From: an uncultured Verrucomicrobia subdivision 3 bacterium
Lineage (GTDB): Bacteria > Verrucomicrobiota > Verrucomicrobiae > Limisphaerales > CAMLLE01
DNA length: 7,645 bases
NCBI GenBank assembly: GCA_946480555.1
Contig: CAMLLE010000126.1
Location: forward strand, 1-7,645
Reading direction: 5' to 3'
Position numbers and translations under genes: made by a program. Under the pieces are notes generated by a model. The model was not told where the DNA came from, did no database searches, and worked only from the letters and a program-made list of their open reading frames with translations. Of the stretch, positions 1 through 6,546 are shown one piece after another. Every line of letters starts with the position of its first letter. Position 1 is the first letter of the stretch.

Positions 1-1
1 C

Positions 2-706
2 TACAACCAAAGCGCCCGACTCCACGACGGAAACGTGGAAGCCGTGATCACGAGCAAACGCGATCAAGATTCCGCGGATGGCATTTGCGTCTTCGACAAG
101 GAACGCGGCGTGGTGGAAGGCATTTACCCGAGGCCCTGGCAGCTATGCACGTGCGTTGGCAAATGGCATTACGACCGCGAAGTCATTTACAAAACGCCCA
201 AGCGCGTCATCGACATGCTGGTCGATGTCGTCAGTCGAAACGGGAACCTGCTGTTGAACTTCCCGCTGCCGAACAGCGGCGCGCTGGACAGTCAGGAATT
301 GAAAATCCTGGAAGCCATCACGAACTGGATGAGCGTGAACAGCGAAGCCATCTACGAAACGCGCCCTTGGAATACCGTTGGCGAAGGCGGGCTGGTGAAG
401 GAAATCCCCGGCGTGAAATACAACGAAGCCAGTTTGAAGGATTTCACATCAGACGTGGTGCGTTTCACTACCAAAGGCAAAACGCTCTACGCATTCTTTA
501 TGGGTTGGCCAGAAAAGGAAGTCACGATTGCGCCGCTCGCTGCTGGCAGGGCACATGTTGCGGGCAGAATCCAGAACGTCGGACTCGTGGGTGCTGCGCC
601 GACATTGAAATGGGAGCACAACTCGAAGGGTCTCACCGTTCAACTGCCGGAAAATCCGCCAACAGATTTCGCCCATGTGCTGAAGATCGAAGGCTTGGAA
701 ACGTGA
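2..706 (+). CDS. GH29 alpha-L-fucosidase, C-terminal part (5' end outside window)
   Basis: This is the last 234 residues of a retaining exo-alpha-L-fucosidase, which releases terminal L-fucose from glycans. The frame is open from the window edge (first residues YNQSARLHDGNVEAV), so the GTG at position 35 is not a real start. The recognisable GH29 stretch is the end of the TIM barrel: WHYDREVIYKTPKRVIDMLV followed by SRNGNLLLNFPLPNSGALD, then NWMSVNSEAIYETRPWN. In the family this part packs the last barrel helices and leads into the C-terminal beta-sandwich, seen here as roughly the last 110 residues (from GEGGLVKEIPGVKYNEAS to VLKIEGLET). The catalytic nucleophile Asp and the acid/base lie upstream and cannot be checked. 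The stop TGA at 704-706 overlaps the GTG of the next gene, so the gene is probably the upstream member of an operon with the beta-helix protein and the rhamnosidase. Family assignment is secure; the natural substrate is not known from sequence. Confidence 0.93.
   Translation, partial: YNQSARLHDGNVEAVITSKRDQDSADGICVFDKERGVVEGIYPRPWQLCTCVGKWHYDREVIYKTPKRVIDMLVDVVSRNGNLLLNFPLPNSGALDSQELKILEAITNWMSVNSEAIYETRPWNTVGEGGLVKEIPGVKYNEASLKDFTSDVVRFTTKGKTLYAFFMGWPEKEVTIAPLAAGRAHVAGRIQNVGLVGAAPTLKWEHNSKGLTVQLPENPPTDFAHVLKIEGLET
690..693 (+). promoter_or_regulatory. Candidate ribosome binding site for GTG 703
   Basis: AAGG lies nine bases before GTG 703, inside the end of the fucosidase gene. Together with the GTGA stop/start overlap it supports coupled re-initiation at 703. 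The match is short, so this is suggestive only. Confidence 0.35.
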
Positions 707-2676
707 AACGCAGTCGGCTATCAACGGAGTTGAATATGGGGCGGACCGGCAGCTCCGCCCCACCAAATCAAGGTAGGGCTGCGCTGCCGCGCAGCCCCAT
801 TGTTCGTCCGAAGCGCAAGCTGTGCCTCGGTGTTCTCGTGAGCCTTGCGCTTTCCCTGACCGGAGCTTTCTCCGCCGAACTTTGGATTTCTCCCACCGGC
901 TCCGATCAAAACCCCGGCTCGCGCGAACAACCTTTCGCCACGCTCTCCGCCGCGCAGCGTAAAGCCCGCGAACTGCGGCGGATCAACGATGTTTCCGCTC
1001 AATCCGGAATTCGCATCGTGCTCGAGGATGGCATTTATCTGCTCACGACTCCCCTGCTCTTTCGTTCCGAAGATTCCGGGACGCCCGAAAGTCCCACCAT
1101 CATCGAGGCAGCGCCAAACGGGCGCCCGACGCTGAGCGGTGGAGTTTCAGTCACCGGCTGGAAGAAGGCGCCGCGTCGCGTGCAAGGATTGCCCCCAGCT
1201 GCACGCGGCAATGTCTGGATGGCCGAAGCGCCACGCATTGGCGGACGCGTTCTCGAATTTCGCCAGCTCTGGATCAACGATCGAAAAGCCGTTCGCGCAC
1301 GGAATCCCAACGGCGCACTCGACCGCATGATGGCGTGGGATCGCACCAACCAATTCGCCATCCTTCCGACATCATCCATCGCCGGAGTCGAAGACCCGTC
1401 CGGCGTCGAAATGATCTTTCATCAGCAATGGGAAATCGCGATCTGCCGCCTGAAGTCGCGGGAGACCTTCAAAGCGCAAACGCGCGTCACGTTTCACGAA
1501 CCCGAATCGCAGTTGCAATTCGAACATCCCTGGCCGCAGCCCGTGATGTCCAGCAACGGCGCGCCATTCTTCCTCGCCAACGCGATCCAGTTTCTCGATC
1601 AGCCGGGTGAGTGGTTTCAGGAGCATCCCGGTGGGCGCATCTATTATTGGCCGCGAGCCGGCGAAGATCTCGATACCGCGACGATCATCGCGCCAGCCTT
1701 CGAAACACTGGTTCAAATCGAAGGCGCGCTCGACGATCCCGTGTCGCATATTTCGTTTCGCGGCATTCGCTTCGCGCACACCACCTGGATGCGTCCGTCC
1801 CTCCAGGGCCACGTACCGCTTCAGGCCGGCATGTACCTTCTCGACGCCTACAAATTGAAACCGCCCGGCACGATCGATCACTCGGCGGGTTTGGACAATC
1901 AAGCCTGGCTCGGCCGCGCGCCTGGCGCCGTCTCAGCAAAGAACGCCAGCCATATCAACTTCGAGCGTTGCACTTTCGAGCACCTCGCCATGTCGGGCCT
2001 GGACGTCCACGGCGGCACCCGCGACTTCGCGATCCAGGGAAACGTGTTTCGTGACATCGGTGGAAATGGAATTCAGCTCGGCCACTTCGCCGATCCCGGA
2101 TTTGAAACACATCGGCCTTACAACCCCACCGACGAACGCGTCATCGCCACGGGCCATCGCATCGCCAACAATCTTGTGACGGACACCGCGAACGAAGAGT
2201 GGGGCTGCGTGGGAATCCTGGCGGGCTACGGGCGCGAGATCACGATCGAGCACAACGAAGTCAGTCACACGTCTTACACCGGCATCAGCGTCGGCTGGGG
2301 CTGGAACAAGGCCGCTAACTGTATGCGCGACAATCGCATTGTAGCGAATCACATCCATCATGTTGCAAAGTGGATGGGTGACACTGCGGGCATCTACACG
2401 CTCTCACCGCAGCCTGGAACCTTGATCGCGAGCAACTCAGTTCACAGCATCCGCATGAGCTCTTACGCCGCCGATCCAGAGCATTGGTTTTATCTCTACC
2501 TCGACGAGGGTTCGTCACACATTACTGTGCGCGACAACTGGTGCCCGGAAGAACGGTTTCTGAAGAACGCGAACGGTCCCGGAAACGTTTGGGAGAACAA
2601 TGGTTCGATGGTGTCGGATGAAATCCGCAACAACGCCGGTCTGCAACCCGCGTTTCGCGACTTGCTGAAGAAATGA
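703..2676 (+). CDS. Secreted right-handed parallel beta-helix protein, GH141-like
   Basis: 657 residues if started at GTG 703. A signal-peptide core lies at residues 40-55 (LCLGVLVSLALSLTG), with cleavage probably near FSA/ELW at 58-59. The mature protein opens with LWISPTGSDQNPGSREQPFA, then GTPESPTIIEAAPNGRPTLS and LWINDRKAVRARNP, a layout known from GH141 and related beta-helix enzymes. The C-terminal half is a beta-helix with repeated Asn-rich turns, including YTGISVGWGW (about 525-534) and DTAGIYTLSPQPGT (560-573). GH141 contains alpha-L-fucosidase and xylanase activities, so an exported fucose-releasing enzyme fits its GH29 neighbour; activity and catalytic residues are not established here. 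I chose GTG 703 because it overlaps the fucosidase stop (GTGA), has AAGG at 690-693, and must predate the palindromic element at 736-800. ATG 736, with GGAG six bases upstream, is the main alternative (646 residues), but it lies in that element. An open frame extending upstream to 85 is only a shadow of the fucosidase. Confidence 0.85.
   Translation: MKRSRLSTELNMGRTGSSAPPNQGRAALPRSPIVRPKRKLCLGVLVSLALSLTGAFSAELWISPTGSDQNPGSREQPFATLSAAQRKARELRRINDVSAQSGIRIVLEDGIYLLTTPLLFRSEDSGTPESPTIIEAAPNGRPTLSGGVSVTGWKKAPRRVQGLPPAARGNVWMAEAPRIGGRVLEFRQLWINDRKAVRARNPNGALDRMMAWDRTNQFAILPTSSIAGVEDPSGVEMIFHQQWEIAICRLKSRETFKAQTRVTFHEPESQLQFEHPWPQPVMSSNGAPFFLANAIQFLDQPGEWFQEHPGGRIYYWPRAGEDLDTATIIAPAFETLVQIEGALDDPVSHISFRGIRFAHTTWMRPSLQGHVPLQAGMYLLDAYKLKPPGTIDHSAGLDNQAWLGRAPGAVSAKNASHINFERCTFEHLAMSGLDVHGGTRDFAIQGNVFRDIGGNGIQLGHFADPGFETHRPYNPTDERVIATGHRIANNLVTDTANEEWGCVGILAGYGREITIEHNEVSHTSYTGISVGWGWNKAANCMRDNRIVANHIHHVAKWMGDTAGIYTLSPQPGTLIASNSVHSIRMSSYAADPEHWFYLYLDEGSSHITVRDNWCPEERFLKNANGPGNVWENNGSMVSDEIRNNAGLQPAFRDLLKK
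726..729 (+). promoter_or_regulatory. Candidate ribosome binding site for ATG 736
   Basis: GGAG is spaced six bases from ATG 736, a canonical Shine-Dalgarno arrangement. It would start the beta-helix protein at the first base of the palindromic element. If used, the inserted element supplies the ATG and creates a second start 33 bases after GTG 703. Which start is used cannot be decided from sequence. Confidence 0.4.
736..800 (+). repeat. Composite palindromic element 1 (two inverted 27-base arms, apex CGGCAG), in-frame inside a CDS
   Basis: The left arm is 736-762, the spacer 763-773, and the right arm 774-800 in inverted orientation. Read in the same sense, the arms match at 21 of 27 positions. 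Each folds into a hairpin with the same six-base tip CGGCAG: 738-745 pairs with 754-761 (GGGGCGGA with TCCGCCCC), and 776-783 pairs with 790-797 (GGGCTGCG with CGCAGCCC). Two of the stem differences between arms are compensated, a G-C pair replaced by T-A and an A-T pair replaced by C-G. The element lies between the start codon and the signal-peptide core of the beta-helix protein and encodes about residues 12-33 without a stop. AT flanks the core on both sides, which could be a 2-base target duplication or part of the inverted repeat. Confidence 0.82.
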
Positions 2677-5600
2677 ATCACACAGTGACAACTCAGCCTC
2701 ACGCGAAGTCAAAATGGGGAGCGCAACCGTCCCGGTTGCACCAGCCGGCGTCCCGCCGGCTGGATCTGCGACGCAAGAGGAAGAACCGAACTTCGTTGGA
2801 TTATGCGCTCGAACGTTTTTGGCGGGACGCCAAAAACAGCAGGCGGGACGCCTGCGCTCCCCGTTGCACTTTGATTCTCCTTTGCTTTCTTCTGTTCAGT
2901 CTCTCCGCTTCTGCCGCGCTCGTTCCGGCAAATCTCAGATGTGAGTATTCGCCGAATCCGCTGGGCATCGATGTCCCCAATCCACGTCTCTCCTGGCAGG
3001 TGCAGAGTGCAGAGCGCGCTCAGTTCCAAACCGCGTATCAAATCCTTGCCGCCAGTTCGACTGAACTGCTCAACGAAGGACAAGCCGATCTTTGGAACAG
3101 TGGCAAAGTAAATTCAGATGAAACACTGCACATTCGTTATGCAGGCAAGGAATTGAAATCTTCGCAGGAAGTGTTCTGGAAACTTCGCGTTTGGGATCGC
3201 TCGGGCACGGCTTCCGACTGGGGCCCTGCTTCGAAGTGGACCATGGGAATTCTGCCGCAGCTTGGAAACGTCTCGCAAGACGCCCCGCCCGCAGGCTGGC
3301 TGGCACGCTGGATCTGCGCCCAAGCCACGAGTGAAGCGCTGTTGCTCAGGAAAGAGTTTCAGATCAAACCCGGCCTGAAGCGCGCCACCATTCACATTTC
3401 CGGTCTTGGCCATTACGAACTGAATCTCAACGGCCGCAGAGTCGGCAAGGATCTGCTCTCGCCCGGCTGGACGGATTACAACGACACGATTCTCTACGAC
3501 ACACACGACGTCACCGCGCAGCTGCAATCTGGCGCCAACGCCATTGGCATCACGCTCGGCAACGGCATGTATCACGTCGTGCGGCGTAATCGCTTTGCGA
3601 AGTTCACCGGTTCATTCGGTCCATTGCGGGCGATTGCGCAGCTTGAGTTGGAATTCGCGGACGGCAGTCGCGAGACAATTGTCACCGATCCCTCATGGCG
3701 AACGCATCCTGGGCCGATCACATACAACAGCATCTTCGGCGGCGAAGATCACGACGCTCGGCTGAATCCGATCGGCTGGGACAAACCGGGCTTCAATGAT
3801 CGGGAATGGAAACTCGCAGTTCATGTCGTCCGTCCGGGCGGCGACCTGCGCGGCCACAGCGCATCGGTCGAACCGATTCGCGCGATTGAAGTTCGCAAAC
3901 CTATTGCCGAGAAGCGCCTCGCTGAAAACAAAAGCGTTTTCGATTTCGGGCAGAACACGTCTTACATTCCGCGACTTCGCGTTGCCGGTCCGGCGGGAAG
4001 CACCGTGCGTTTGATTCCAGCGGAAGTAGTAAACGCCGACGGTTCGATCCAGCGTTCCACCATGGGCAGCACCAATCGCGGGCTTTCCTGGTGGGAATTC
4101 ACGAAGGCAACGGACGCGGAGGAAGAGTGGTTTCCGCAGTTTTATTATGTCGGTTGCAGGTATCTTGAAGCGACCCTCAACCCGGCCGCAACCAGCGTAG
4201 GGCAGGCTTTCCAGCCTGCCGGTTCTGGCGGCGTTCCAGTCGCCAGTTCCCAATCCAATTCAACACGCAACGACTCGGGGCTCGAAAGCCCCGCCGACTG
4301 GCGGGCTGCAAAGCCTGCCCTACAAATCACATCTCTCGAAGGCGTCATCATCCATGCCGACGTAGCCTTCACCGGCGACTTCGAATGTTCCAATCCGCGG
4401 CTCAACCGCATTCGCGAACTCGTCCGCTGGGCGCAGCGCGCGAACATGGTTTCGGTTCTCACCGATTGCCCGCATCGCGAAAAGCTCGGCTGGCTGGAGC
4501 AATACCATCTGAATGGTCCTTCCATCCGGTACGAGTTTGACACGGCTCGCATGTTCACGAAGGGCATGAATGACATGGCCGACGCCCAGCTCGACAACGG
4601 CCTTGTGCCGAACATTGCGCCCGAGTTCACCGAGTTCAAAGGCGCGTTCCGCAGCGCCGCCGAGTGGGGCAGCGCGTTCATCATCGTGCCGTGGCAGCAG
4701 TATCAATTCTGCGGCGATCTCGATCTTCTACGCACGCATTACGCCGGAATGAAGCGCTACTTCACGTATCTGGAAGGCCTCGCGACGAACAACATTCTTT
4801 CGCAGGGCCTTGGCGATTGGTTCGATCTCGGCCCGAAGAAATCCGGCGCGCCGCAACACACACCGCCGCCGGTGACTGCGACGGCGTTTCTGTTTCACGA
4901 TGCGCAAATCCTCGCGGAAGCCGCGAAGCTTCTGAACCAAACCGACGACGCGAAGCATTTCGCCCGGCGCGCCGTTGCGATTCGCACGAGTTACAACCGG
5001 CAGTTCTTCAATGCCGACAACGGTAGTTACGCCACCGGTTCTCAATGCGCGAACGCCCTGCCGCTCGTCCTCGGGATGGTGGAGCCGCAGCATCGTTCCG
5101 TCGTGCTGGACGCGCTCGTCAAGGATCTGGAATCACGCGATTACCTGATGACCGCCGGCGACATCGGCTTCCGTTTCCTGCTTCAGGCGCTGGCGCAGAA
5201 CGGCCGTTCAGACGTGATCTATCGCATGATCAACCAGGACGAAAAACCCGGCTACGGTTACATGCTGAAGAAGGGCGAGACGAGCCTGACGGAGGCATGG
5301 GACGCCAACCTCACCACGTCGCACAATCATTTCATGCTCGGGCACATCACGGAGTGGTTTTACAAGGACCTGGCCGGAATCGACTGCGACCTGAGCGGCC
5401 CCGGCTTCAAGCACATCGTCATCAAGCCGCAGCCTGTCGGCGACCTGACCTGGGCGCGTGCGAGTTATGAATCCGTTCGCGGCAGAATCGCGAGCCATTG
5501 GCGCCGGTCGGAGAATGCCTTCGAACTCGACGTCACAATTCCCGCCAACACGCGCGCCACGATCTTTCTTCCGGCACATTCAACGGAACAGATTCGCGAA

Positions 5601-5717
5601 AGTGGGCGAAGGCTCCCCGACGTCAGCGGCGTGACCAATGTTCGGGTTCTGGGAGATCAGGTGATCTTCGAAATTGGTTCGGGACATTACCAGTTTCGCA
5701 CCTGGTCCCAACAATAG
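2673..5717 (+). CDS. Secreted GH78 alpha-L-rhamnosidase with two in-frame palindromic insertions
   Basis: 1014 residues. It hydrolyses terminal alpha-L-rhamnose with inversion, presumably outside the cytoplasm. Domain order: signal-peptide core at 65-82 (cleavage near SASA/ALVP, 81-82); an Ig-like N-terminal domain (about 83-190, with PLGIDVPNPRLSW); the rhamnosidase N domain (about 225-395, ISGLGHYELNLNGRRVG); another beta domain (about 415-505); the (alpha/alpha)6 catalytic barrel (about 570-910); and a C-terminal beta domain (about 910-990). The barrel carries DCPHREKLGW at 598-607, where Glu603 aligns with the family general acid, and TEAWDAN with Glu874 at the position of the general base, so the enzyme should be active. 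ATG 2673 overlaps the previous stop (ATGA) and has no good ribosome binding site, implying coupling. The 64 residues before the hydrophobic core are unusually long and are largely encoded by the element at 2716-2862; a second element adds residues 509-551 in the linker before the barrel. TTG 2796 is a weaker alternative start. Confidence 0.93.
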   Translation: MNHTVTTQPHAKSKWGAQPSRLHQPASRRLDLRRKRKNRTSLDYALERFWRDAKNSRRDACAPRCTLILLCFLLFSLSASAALVPANLRCEYSPNPLGIDVPNPRLSWQVQSAERAQFQTAYQILAASSTELLNEGQADLWNSGKVNSDETLHIRYAGKELKSSQEVFWKLRVWDRSGTASDWGPASKWTMGILPQLGNVSQDAPPAGWLARWICAQATSEALLLRKEFQIKPGLKRATIHISGLGHYELNLNGRRVGKDLLSPGWTDYNDTILYDTHDVTAQLQSGANAIGITLGNGMYHVVRRNRFAKFTGSFGPLRAIAQLELEFADGSRETIVTDPSWRTHPGPITYNSIFGGEDHDARLNPIGWDKPGFNDREWKLAVHVVRPGGDLRGHSASVEPIRAIEVRKPIAEKRLAENKSVFDFGQNTSYIPRLRVAGPAGSTVRLIPAEVVNADGSIQRSTMGSTNRGLSWWEFTKATDAEEEWFPQFYYVGCRYLEATLNPAATSVGQAFQPAGSGGVPVASSQSNSTRNDSGLESPADWRAAKPALQITSLEGVIIHADVAFTGDFECSNPRLNRIRELVRWAQRANMVSVLTDCPHREKLGWLEQYHLNGPSIRYEFDTARMFTKGMNDMADAQLDNGLVPNIAPEFTEFKGAFRSAAEWGSAFIIVPWQQYQFCGDLDLLRTHYAGMKRYFTYLEGLATNNILSQGLGDWFDLGPKKSGAPQHTPPPVTATAFLFHDAQILAEAAKLLNQTDDAKHFARRAVAIRTSYNRQFFNADNGSYATGSQCANALPLVLGMVEPQHRSVVLDALVKDLESRDYLMTAGDIGFRFLLQALAQNGRSDVIYRMINQDEKPGYGYMLKKGETSLTEAWDANLTTSHNHFMLGHITEWFYKDLAGIDCDLSGPGFKHIVIKPQPVGDLTWARASYESVRGRIASHWRRSENAFELDVTIPANTRATIFLPAHSTEQIRESGRRLPDVSGVTNVRVLGDQVIFEIGSGHYQFRTWSQQ
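2716..2862 (+). repeat. Composite palindromic element 2 (two inverted 48-base arms, four hairpins with apex CGTCCCG), in-frame inside a CDS
   Basis: Arms 2716-2763 and 2815-2862 are inverted around a 51-base spacer. Each arm has the same plan: GGGGAGC, a 7-pair hairpin, one base, and a 10-pair hairpin. All four loops are TCC (GGA on the other strand) closed by C-G pairs. Stems are 2723-2729/2733-2739, 2741-2750/2754-2763, 2815-2824/2828-2837 and 2839-2845/2849-2855, all perfectly paired. Compared in the same sense, the arms differ at 8 of 17 base pairs, and every difference is compensated. The outer ten bases (GGGGAGCGCA) are perfectly inverted at the two ends. The total length is 147, exactly 49 codons, open in the rhamnosidase frame (residues 15-64), in one other plus frame and in at least one minus frame. 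No convincing target duplication flanks it. Confidence 0.88.
4197..4323 (+). repeat. Composite palindromic element 3 (GTAGGGCAGGCTTT ends), in-frame inside a CDS
   Basis: The perfect 14-base ends GTAGGGCAGGCTTT (4197-4210) and AAAGCCTGCCCTAC (4310-4323) are inverted; over 24 bases the ends differ at only two positions. Each end is itself a hairpin: 4201-4208/4213-4220 with loop TTCC, and 4300-4307/4312-4319 with loop GCAA and one G-T pair. Inside are further hairpins, 4225-4230/4241-4246 (CTGGCG with CGCCAG) and 4276-4282/4287-4293 (CGGGGCT with AGCCCCG, loop CGAA), plus pairing of 4241-4247 with 4297-4303. It is read in frame by the rhamnosidase (residues 509-551, starting VGQAFQPAGSGG). TA flanks the core at 4198-4199 and 4321-4322; removing the core plus one TA would take out 123 bases, 41 codons. 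Confidence 0.85.
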
Positions 5718-5744: not shown

Positions 5745-6443
5745 TCAGAAATTCCATTCCACGAATCCGTTCGGACCGATGGTGCGGAAGCGCGGTTCCA
5801 TTTGATCGAAATCGCGCCAGGCCACATGCAGATCCAGGAAGAGAATATTCCCACCCTGGGCGCCGTTCTTGCGAATGTGATTGCTGCGATCCGTCCAAAT
5901 GCCAGTGATGCGGCTGAAATCATCGTCCATGCAGGCGGTGGCGTCGAAGGCGAGTTCCATTTCCGCGGTCTTGCCGGCTCCCTTCAGGCTGGCGCGCCAG
6001 AGATTGCGCGGCACCTGGCGGACACCGGGCAGCAGCATTGGATAGCCGATTACCCGTATCGGACTGGGATCGTTCTTCCAGAAGTTCCAGTGCCGGTCAT
6101 CGTTCATCTCAAGATTCGCGGGACAGTAAAACTGCTCCCGTCCGGCGCCGTTCTTTTCCAGAATCGTGGTCAGGTTCGTGTGAATGTCCCAGGGCCACTG
6201 CGGACCGGCGAAGTTGGAAAGGCGGCAATCGGGGAGCGCGTCCTGGTTGTCATTCGCATACGACTGAAGAGCCCCGCCGATCTTTTGCAGATTCTCCCGG
6301 CAATTCGTTCTAAACGCCCGTTGCTTGAGTTGTGCGCCACCGGCAAGGGTCACGAAAGCCAGCACCCCGAGAATGCAGAGGATTGCGGCGACATCCAGGG
6401 GCCGGATGGCGCCAAGCTCGTTTCTCCTCCGCAGACATTTCAT
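5745..6443 (-). CDS. Pseudopilin-like membrane-anchored protein with H-X9-DG-like C-terminal motif
   Basis: 232 residues from ATG 6443 (MKCLRRRNELGAIRPLDVAA). A basic N-terminus is followed by one hydrophobic helix at about 16-36, then RTNCRENLQKIGGALQSYAN (about 45-64), the usual continuation of type II secretion pseudopilin-like proteins of Verrucomicrobia and Planctomycetes (compare the family consensus C-NNLKQIGLA--Y--DN). Near the C-terminus, SNHIRKNGAQGG runs into NILFLDLHVAW, matching the processing-associated H-X9-DG domain, but with Leu instead of the usual Gly after Asp and a longer His spacing. The prepilin cleavage site is degenerate: the canonical G/FTLIE is GAIRPLD, with no Glu at +5. 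It may therefore stay as a simple membrane protein rather than a processed pilin. Function and partners are unknown. I chose ATG 6443 because it starts right before the basic stretch; GTG 6539, 8 bases past the glyA stop, would give 264 residues. It lies downstream of glyA in the same direction and could be co-transcribed. Confidence 0.8.
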   Translation of the reverse strand: MKCLRRRNELGAIRPLDVAAILCILGVLAFVTLAGGAQLKQRAFRTNCRENLQKIGGALQSYANDNQDALPDCRLSNFAGPQWPWDIHTNLTTILEKNGAGREQFYCPANLEMNDDRHWNFWKNDPSPIRVIGYPMLLPGVRQVPRNLWRASLKGAGKTAEMELAFDATACMDDDFSRITGIWTDRSNHIRKNGAQGGNILFLDLHVAWRDFDQMEPRFRTIGPNGFVEWNF

Positions 6444-6461
6444 AAACGTCCAATCCCGTTG

Positions 6462-6485
6462 CGGCGCGCTTTTCCGGGCGCGCCG
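6462..6485 (-). other. Hairpin between glyA and the pseudopilin-like gene
   Basis: CGGCGCGC (6462-6469) and GCGCGCCG (6478-6485) pair perfectly over eight bases around the eight-base loop 6470-6477. In the direction of transcription it lies about 60 bases after the glyA stop and about 18 bases before ATG 6443. No T-run follows it on the minus strand, so it is not a classical intrinsic terminator. It could slow transcription, protect the glyA mRNA end, or be chance in GC-rich DNA. Confidence 0.4.
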
Positions 6486-6546
6486 TGTGTCGCTGACCGC
6501 GCCTAGCTTCTGCTTCACGCGGAGGAGCCGCCCGCACACCAGTGGA

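Follow-up and report, generated by a model that had tools for sequence, protein, structure and literature searches.

A 7,645-nucleotide stretch of contig CAMLLE010000126.1, from an uncultured Verrucomicrobia subdivision 3 bacterium (assembly GCA_946480555.1; the whole stretch is hereafter the window), contains three palindromic elements, E1, E2 and E3, inside two adjacent genes for secreted enzymes. Our analysis makes it quite probable that E1-E3 are repetitive extragenic palindromes (REPs), including bacterial interspersed mosaic elements (BIMEs), of the type linked to REP-associated tyrosine transposases (RAYTs), that they belong to mostly intergenic families but are here kept and translated in frame, and that the E2 family is tied to a clade of RAYTs lying in frame within host genes. 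We lean, with less assurance, towards the further reading that members of this RAYT clade no longer have genes of their own and survive as translated domains, not spliced out, within essential enzymes, with REP peptides as linkers; the host would protect the frame, and the cell would carry a constitutively made transposase seeding REPs such as E2 into other genes. The transposase looks like one carried as a translated protein insert. E2-family REPs flanking a RAYT clade inside long open frames of essential genes are new; intragenic GTAG REPs themselves were already published in 2013.

The three elements are listed below, with folding z-scores computed against 200 dinucleotide-preserving shuffles each (E2 folded as 2712-2862).

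739..797, + strand: E1, a two-hairpin REP dimer whose right unit begins GTAG (GTAGGGCTGCGC...), translated as GRTGSSAPPNQGRAALPRSP; z -3.93
2716..2862, + strand: E2, a long palindromic REP dimer with inner hairpins, running GGGGAGCGC...GCGCTCCCC; z -8.71
4197..4323, + strand: E3, a REP dimer of the form GTAG...CTAC, placed in the linker that joins the Bac_rhamnosid domain to the six-hairpin domain and translated as VGQAFQPAGSGG...AAKPAL; z -6.30

No shuffle matched the folding of any of the three elements. An inverted-repeat scan of the window (seed 9, arms at most 120 bases apart) recovered E2 and E3 only, the hairpins of E1 being shorter, and an Rfam scan of the window gave no match at gathering score. 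As the initial annotation had proposed, the three palindromes are open in frame inside the adjacent GH141 (703-2676) and GH78 (2673-5717) open reading frames (ORFs), E1 and E2 both sitting between an overlapping start and the hydrophobic signal stretch. Its assignment of the elements to three separate families also holds, each having its own copies in genomes of one order. The order-level survey covered 313 genomes of the order of genome G008, including a Limisphaera metagenome-assembled genome (L005, the same as G005) and G051, the nearest relative discussed below; with two candidates scored per genome, the counts are lower bounds. Matches were found in at least 77 genomes for the E1 family (best relative 90% identical over 59 nucleotides), at least 87 for the E2 family (best relative 79%, nearly full length) and at least 65 for the E3 family. 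E3 matches were also present in 7 of 20 genomes reached via GH78 matches. G008 holds at least 42 of them (40 of 75 candidates scored) and G012 holds 27, with up to 93% identity over the 55-base left half. Exact 16-mer repeat finding proved too strict for these degenerate families.

Counted in related genomes, E1, E2 and E3 are all dispersed and multi-copy, as GTAG REPs are. E3 begins GTAG and ends CTAC and the right unit of E1 begins GTAG, whereas E2 ends without a clear GTAG and is classed only as REP-like. Tags adjacent to hairpins exceeded those of one Markov shuffle in both genomes compared (GTGG 35 versus 5 and GTAG 23 versus 7 in G051; GTAG 24 versus 2 in G008). The E3 family in G008 has a transposase beside it: a RAYT-type ORF (L207, 1884-2564) lies between inverted E3-family dimers, its stop falling inside the GTAG of the right dimer. 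A RAYT flanked by the same repeat on both sides is likewise found for the E2 family, at the in-frame RAYTs, and a Y1_Tnp domain was detected in 11 of the 12 genomes searched. A separate locus (L335; G224:C81, about 6849-7874) carries eight E3-family copies about 140 bases apart, adjoining a RAYT frame of 241 amino acids (aa) at 6097-6399.

The in-frame RAYT clade was reached through L236, an alaS locus, which led to L317, where an alaS ORF, a RAYT segment and E2-family REPs all share one frame. A search of the 313 genomes with the RAYT segment, in which up to 11 candidates were scored per genome, listed 42 matches at E <=1.1e-22 in 34 genomes, and all 42 lie in stop-free frames of 555-1540 aa; weaker matches (3.1e-18 and beyond) are a mixture of frames of about 190-350 aa and longer ones. 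Six further matches of the clade came from a phylum sample of 288 genomes, all in open frames of 730-1316 aa and followed by a gap to 1.2e-18. Hosts were read in 39 of the 48 close matches, namely in 33 of the 42 (27 alaS, two of them from one side only, 5 thrS and 1 priA-like by motif) and in the 6 of the phylum sample (4 alaS and 2 recG, L377 by Pfam). Of the other matches, three lie on the same contig and in the same frame as alaS. A 30-record set omits the duplicate loci L337, L339, L340, L343 and L349 and the distant RAYTs L318, L319, L324 and L325, as well as L358, L365 and L366, which gave no clean RAYT core; L342 was assigned to alaS site 1 by hand. By place, 17 of these records occupy one alaS site, 8 the other and 5 thrS, and single alaS genes in G059, G150 and G149 contain two RAYTs.

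In eight of nine proteins scanned with Pfam, a single ORF held both Y1_Tnp and host domains, with Y1_Tnp over the cut-off in six. Within the clade, L323 and L321 were over the cut-off, L317 just under it and L377 without the domain; the five more distant RAYTs also scanned all had it, L324 just under the cut-off. Such distant RAYTs lie in long frames as well, with priA and a DinG-like helicase (G139), a dnaE-like piece (G084), hsdR (G008) and valS (L384), and a second in-frame RAYT lineage may exist. As read individually, the frame of L324 spans 702-3578 with hsdR, that of L384 spans 1-3273 with valyl-tRNA synthetase, and L390 appears restriction/methylase-like by eye.

Several lines of evidence bear on how firmly host and transposase are joined. 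In 26 of the 30 records, host motifs precede and follow the RAYT in the same frame, and three records (L338, L341, L363) are cut by contig ends. REP hairpins are present at both ends of the insert: stems of at least 8 occur in 51 of 59 RAYT flanks, versus 2.2 expected, and in none of the 30 RAYT cores. E2 is similar to 24 of these flanks, in 13 of the 30 records, and E1 and E3 to none. The transposase motifs are intact, the HUH motif being found in 29 of 30 records and the catalytic tyrosine motif in all 30. In three records no ATG, GTG or TTG occurs in the 60 codons upstream of the RAYT core. Copy number was counted for alaS alone, in 23 genomes that do not include G084; the gene is single-copy in 22 and carries a RAYT in 20. 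The ratio of nonsynonymous to synonymous divergence (dN/dS), read for the 28 closest of all RAYT pairs computed, was 0.024-0.093 in the 21 pairs with finite dS, a rough indication of purifying selection on the RAYT. On a 37-row tree with 30 labelled rows, accounting for the three places takes 5 changes, and for site 1 alone 4, all of them forced by branches with good support; consequently, the RAYT element changed place several times.

These observations suggest the following scenario. E1-E3 would be non-autonomous and, judging from their families, spread by single-strand RAYT transposases, most surviving copies being intergenic. Copies landing in frame and free of stops in linkers, loops or the stretch from start to signal peptide would be kept and translated as extra peptide. 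The E2 family flanks a distinct RAYT clade, which would live as an in-frame insert in essential genes (alaS, thrS, recG and probably priA). In the simplest mechanism, a single polypeptide would comprise host and transposase. Selection acting on the host gene, which is essential, would keep REP-RAYT-REP in frame and free of stops, and the RAYT within the host could act on REP copies elsewhere. From the sequences we infer translation as one chain, transposase activity and mobilisation of E2.

A number of findings weigh against this explanation. In G084 (L322), the N-terminal part of alaS lies just upstream in a frame that differs from that of the RAYT and the rest of alaS; the fusion there is broken or misread, through a real break or a sequence error. 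The break falls at about 4673-4828 of the reverse strand of L322. G253 has two overlapping alaS pieces of differing identity on two contigs, perhaps a second copy. The RAYT core is preceded by a start codon at a distance of at most 20 codons in 9 of the 30 records, where the RAYT could be initiated separately. The only pair with dS below 1, L322-L323 (dS 0.64; RAYT dN/dS 0.078; adjoining host segment 0.091/0.43, about 0.21), includes the G084 record, and the estimate of selection is thus mostly based on saturated pairs. RAYT and host identity at alaS site 2 are weakly correlated (r 0.28, 120 pairs), which indicates that the history is not simply vertical. Finally, besides E3, only one kind of linker peptide, that of L024, was checked as DNA.

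The distribution of copies across genomes was examined with a codon-hexamer classifier of the flanks, the copies entered being the best-matching ones of each genome rather than randomly sampled. Among 110 distinct copies, 9 lie inside one ORF, 14 lie 5' of an ORF that is open through them, 53 are without coding flank, 6 lie at edges and 28 fall in other classes. Random points (n = 600) fell inside one ORF 414 times and 5' of an ORF open through them 55 times. With 9 of 110 copies versus 414 of 600 random points in one ORF, the families are mainly intergenic, as GTAG REPs mostly are, and the preference for gene interiors suggested by the initial annotation is not supported. Two circumstances that it had named as telling against its reading are partly present: copies are mostly intergenic, and some N-terminal copies may reflect misannotated starts. 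Rickettsia palindromic elements (RPEs) are palindromes inserted in frame in many proteins, and the proposal of a similar in-frame gene invasion in another phylum is supported, G051 having REPs, also open, at both N-terminal positions.

Genes with a copy in frame in their interior encode an OGG-type glycosylase (L100), MmeI (L226), a propeller protein (L254) and a BadF-type protein (L270); the alaS gene of L236 has two such copies. E3-family REPs also lie in frame, at about the same place, in protein kinases of two genomes (L086, 1447-1533; L283, 1501-1555), between the DFG and APE motifs, in the activation segment. Six of seven in-gene hosts scanned with Pfam are cytosolic by family, the seventh being the propeller protein, and the one-ORF row L099 (156 aa) was left out; an export-linked preference as a general rule was rejected because the scanned hosts are mostly cytosolic. 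A classifier based on 150-nucleotide flanks (G051, G008) performed weakly and was set aside: the two N-terminal REPs known in G051 came out as 'none', and the four rows that it scored as 'in-frame', of which three are from G051 and one is from G008, are repeated coding motifs by eye.

The place of E3 was compared in 121 GH78 proteins, the window and 120 listed of 2394 matches. The segment at the E3 place measures 31-33 aa in 80 proteins and at least 40 aa in 35, window included. Residue 517 is the internal place with the most insertions of at least 8 aa (28), the next being residue 203 (10). Sequence alignment with the solved relatives 6i60 and 3w5m leaves just 4 and 1 residues at the E3 place, which is therefore a domain linker. 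The inserted peptides, sorted by patterns picked by eye, are of several kinds: GAHGVTRPT-type (7), GVRG/GERD-type (8), SRRES/LTSAAT (3) and VPPLGG/RLKP-type (5 pattern matches, one of which, P0079, has the canonical length and is a chance match). The E3 kind occurs in the window and P0044, a third pattern match, P0059, being of another kind. As DNA, the L024 insert has at least 42 matches in G010 including itself, mostly over a 28-base stretch (40 of 140 candidates scored). Of the genomes found through GH78, G051 is the nearest; it has the identical fucosidase-GH141-GH78 order and a GH78 that is 72-77% identical to that of the window and lacks E3, an empty orthologous site. E3 is an in-frame insertion with an uninterrupted orthologue, a likeness to RPEs of outcome only. 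A second lengthened place of GH78, at residue 476-477 (about 4098-4103), carries SRRE/SRRD-type peptides in 4 of the 121 proteins.

E1 and E2 could instead be ordinary REPs in the 5' leaders of misannotated genes, translation starting after or inside them and E3 alone being coding. We regard this as unlikely, albeit the best of the alternatives. A warning that N-terminal REPs may be misannotation is given in PMC3733652, and the 14 copies lying 5' of an open ORF would fit it. Among the starts of the window GH78 (2673, 2685, 2736, 2796 and 2871), the TTG at 2736 and 2796 are within E2 and the TTG at 2871 is beyond it. For GH141, all in-frame starts ahead of the signal stretch (703, 730, 736) read through E1; no start occurs between E1 and the signal core, and the sole later one, the GTG at 838, lies within the hydrophobic stretch and leaves no positive n-region. 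The GH141 and GH78 leaders of G051 carry different REPs (GTAGCGCAGGTTC... and GTGGCGCAGACTT...), of GTAG/GTGG type, open in frame from starts overlapping the upstream stop. An ATG and a GTG lie 3' of the REP in its GH141 leader, which may hence be untranslated. Its GH78 leader offers two in-frame starts, the ATG of the overlap and a GTG at the very beginning of the REP; the 260 bases checked contain none beyond the REP. In the window and in G051 alike, both genes begin in an overlap with the preceding stop, and the frame set by that start is open through all four leaders; Markov-shuffled versions of these leaders keep the frame open at frequencies of 0.38, 0.35, 0.19 and 0.26, with a product of 0.0066. 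The suggestion that harmless sites are favoured stands in part: permissive places are reused, as in the G051 leaders and the linker lengthened in 35 of 121 proteins, but a preference for peptides removed on export is not supported.

Inteins are mobile DNA housed in genes that continue to function. By analogy, REP-RAYT-REP might be excised from host RNA or protein in the manner of IStrons or inteins, leaving a mature enzyme without insert. The hosts are essential and mostly single-copy, which presumably resembles the targets of inteins and introns, and removal would explain the tolerance of extra residues. Yet RNA splicing does not need an open frame, and all 48 close RAYT matches lie in long open frames; no intein or other splicing domain was detected at E 0.001 in nine RAYT-bearing ORFs scanned. 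Moreover, in the alaS genes of G012 and G008, which are without RAYT, both insertion places are long stretches that differ between these two genomes. Excision therefore appears improbable, and a frame open throughout is what would be expected of a translated insert.

It is more improbable still that the long RAYT frames are artefacts of assembly or binning, or dead host genes. The genomes are mostly fragmented, contig ends cut 3 of the 30 records and the upstream part of alaS in G084 is in another frame. Against this, the long frames recur in 34 + 6 genomes, some within long contigs (at least 3.5 Mb in G063), none of the 48 contains a stop, dN/dS is low and alaS is single in 22 of 23 genomes. 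That the elements belong to the RPE group and were acquired horizontally can practically be dismissed: the outcome is alike, palindromes lying in frame within coding sequence, but RPE-4 and RPE-6, compared by description only, are CGTC-tagged according to PMC3733652, E1 and E3 are GTAG-tagged, and the E3 family has a RAYT beside it in G008.

Our favoured explanation, REPs translated in frame and a RAYT clade carried within host proteins, is best placed beside the systems already described. Di Nocera et al. 2013 (PMC3733652) reported intragenic GTAG REPs, the majority of them from the verrucomicrobium O. terrae, and noted one site shared by two recB genes. Ours share with them the GTAG tag, the short stems, the arrangement as dimers, the coexistence of several families in a genome and the presence of copies inside genes; they differ from what the parts consulted describe in that several kinds of peptide extend one linker of a single enzyme family, and in that an in-frame RAYT has REPs on both flanks. 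PMC6006769 describes REPs that lie within tnpA-REP genes and preserve their frame; proteins of unexpected length were discarded there as fusions of genes or as annotation errors. Like the RAYT/TnpA-REP and REPtrons described there, the present elements combine HUH and tyrosine motifs with REPs on both sides; unlike the RAYTs of the sections consulted, they include a clade whose close matches all lie in long frames. RPEs share the in-frame palindromes in proteins but differ in phylum and, for RPE-4 and RPE-6, in tag, and the summary of PMC3733652 describes no in-frame transposase for them. With inteins, and with IStrons (PMC4227781), our elements share mobile DNA within genes still in use. Among the matches listed in the open-access literature, to which the search was confined (subscription papers and preprints lying outside its scope), there was no report of a transposase in frame in a housekeeping gene.

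REPs read as protein are linked here to a possible lifestyle of mobile elements, in frame within genes that cannot be lost and without splicing. They offer a testable setting for the gain of linkers and domains by proteins and for the persistence of RAYTs. They also call for caution with gene callers that trim REP-bearing N-termini or dismiss long RAYT proteins as annotation errors.

The other features of the window are listed below.

2..706, + strand: 3' end of an alpha-L-fucosidase gene (PF01120, PF16757), whose TGA stop overlaps the next start (GTGA)
703..2676, + strand: GH141-type gene with a GTG start (PF21231, PF13229), overlapping the fucosidase stop by 4 bases
805..876, + strand: signal-peptide core of GH141, RPKRKLCLGVLVSLALSLTGAFSA, by eye from the translation
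2673..5717, + strand: GH78 alpha-L-rhamnosidase gene with an ATG start (PF25788, PF08531, PF05592, PF17389, PF17390), its ATGA overlapping the GH141 stop
2865..2915, + strand: signal-peptide core of GH78, CTLILLCFLLFSLSASA, by eye from the translation
5745-6539, - strand: ORF of 264 aa without Pfam match, prepilin-like by eye

Reading of the sequence bears out the 4-base gene overlaps (GTGA, ATGA) recorded initially. The frames of GH141 and GH78 are unbroken and their main Pfam domains are kept, so that neither gene looks like a pseudogene. A serine hydroxymethyltransferase gene is also present in the window (ORF and Pfam scan). Among the GH78 proteins compared, P0073, P0088, P0092, P0103, P0112 and P0116 have an extra PF13088 domain.

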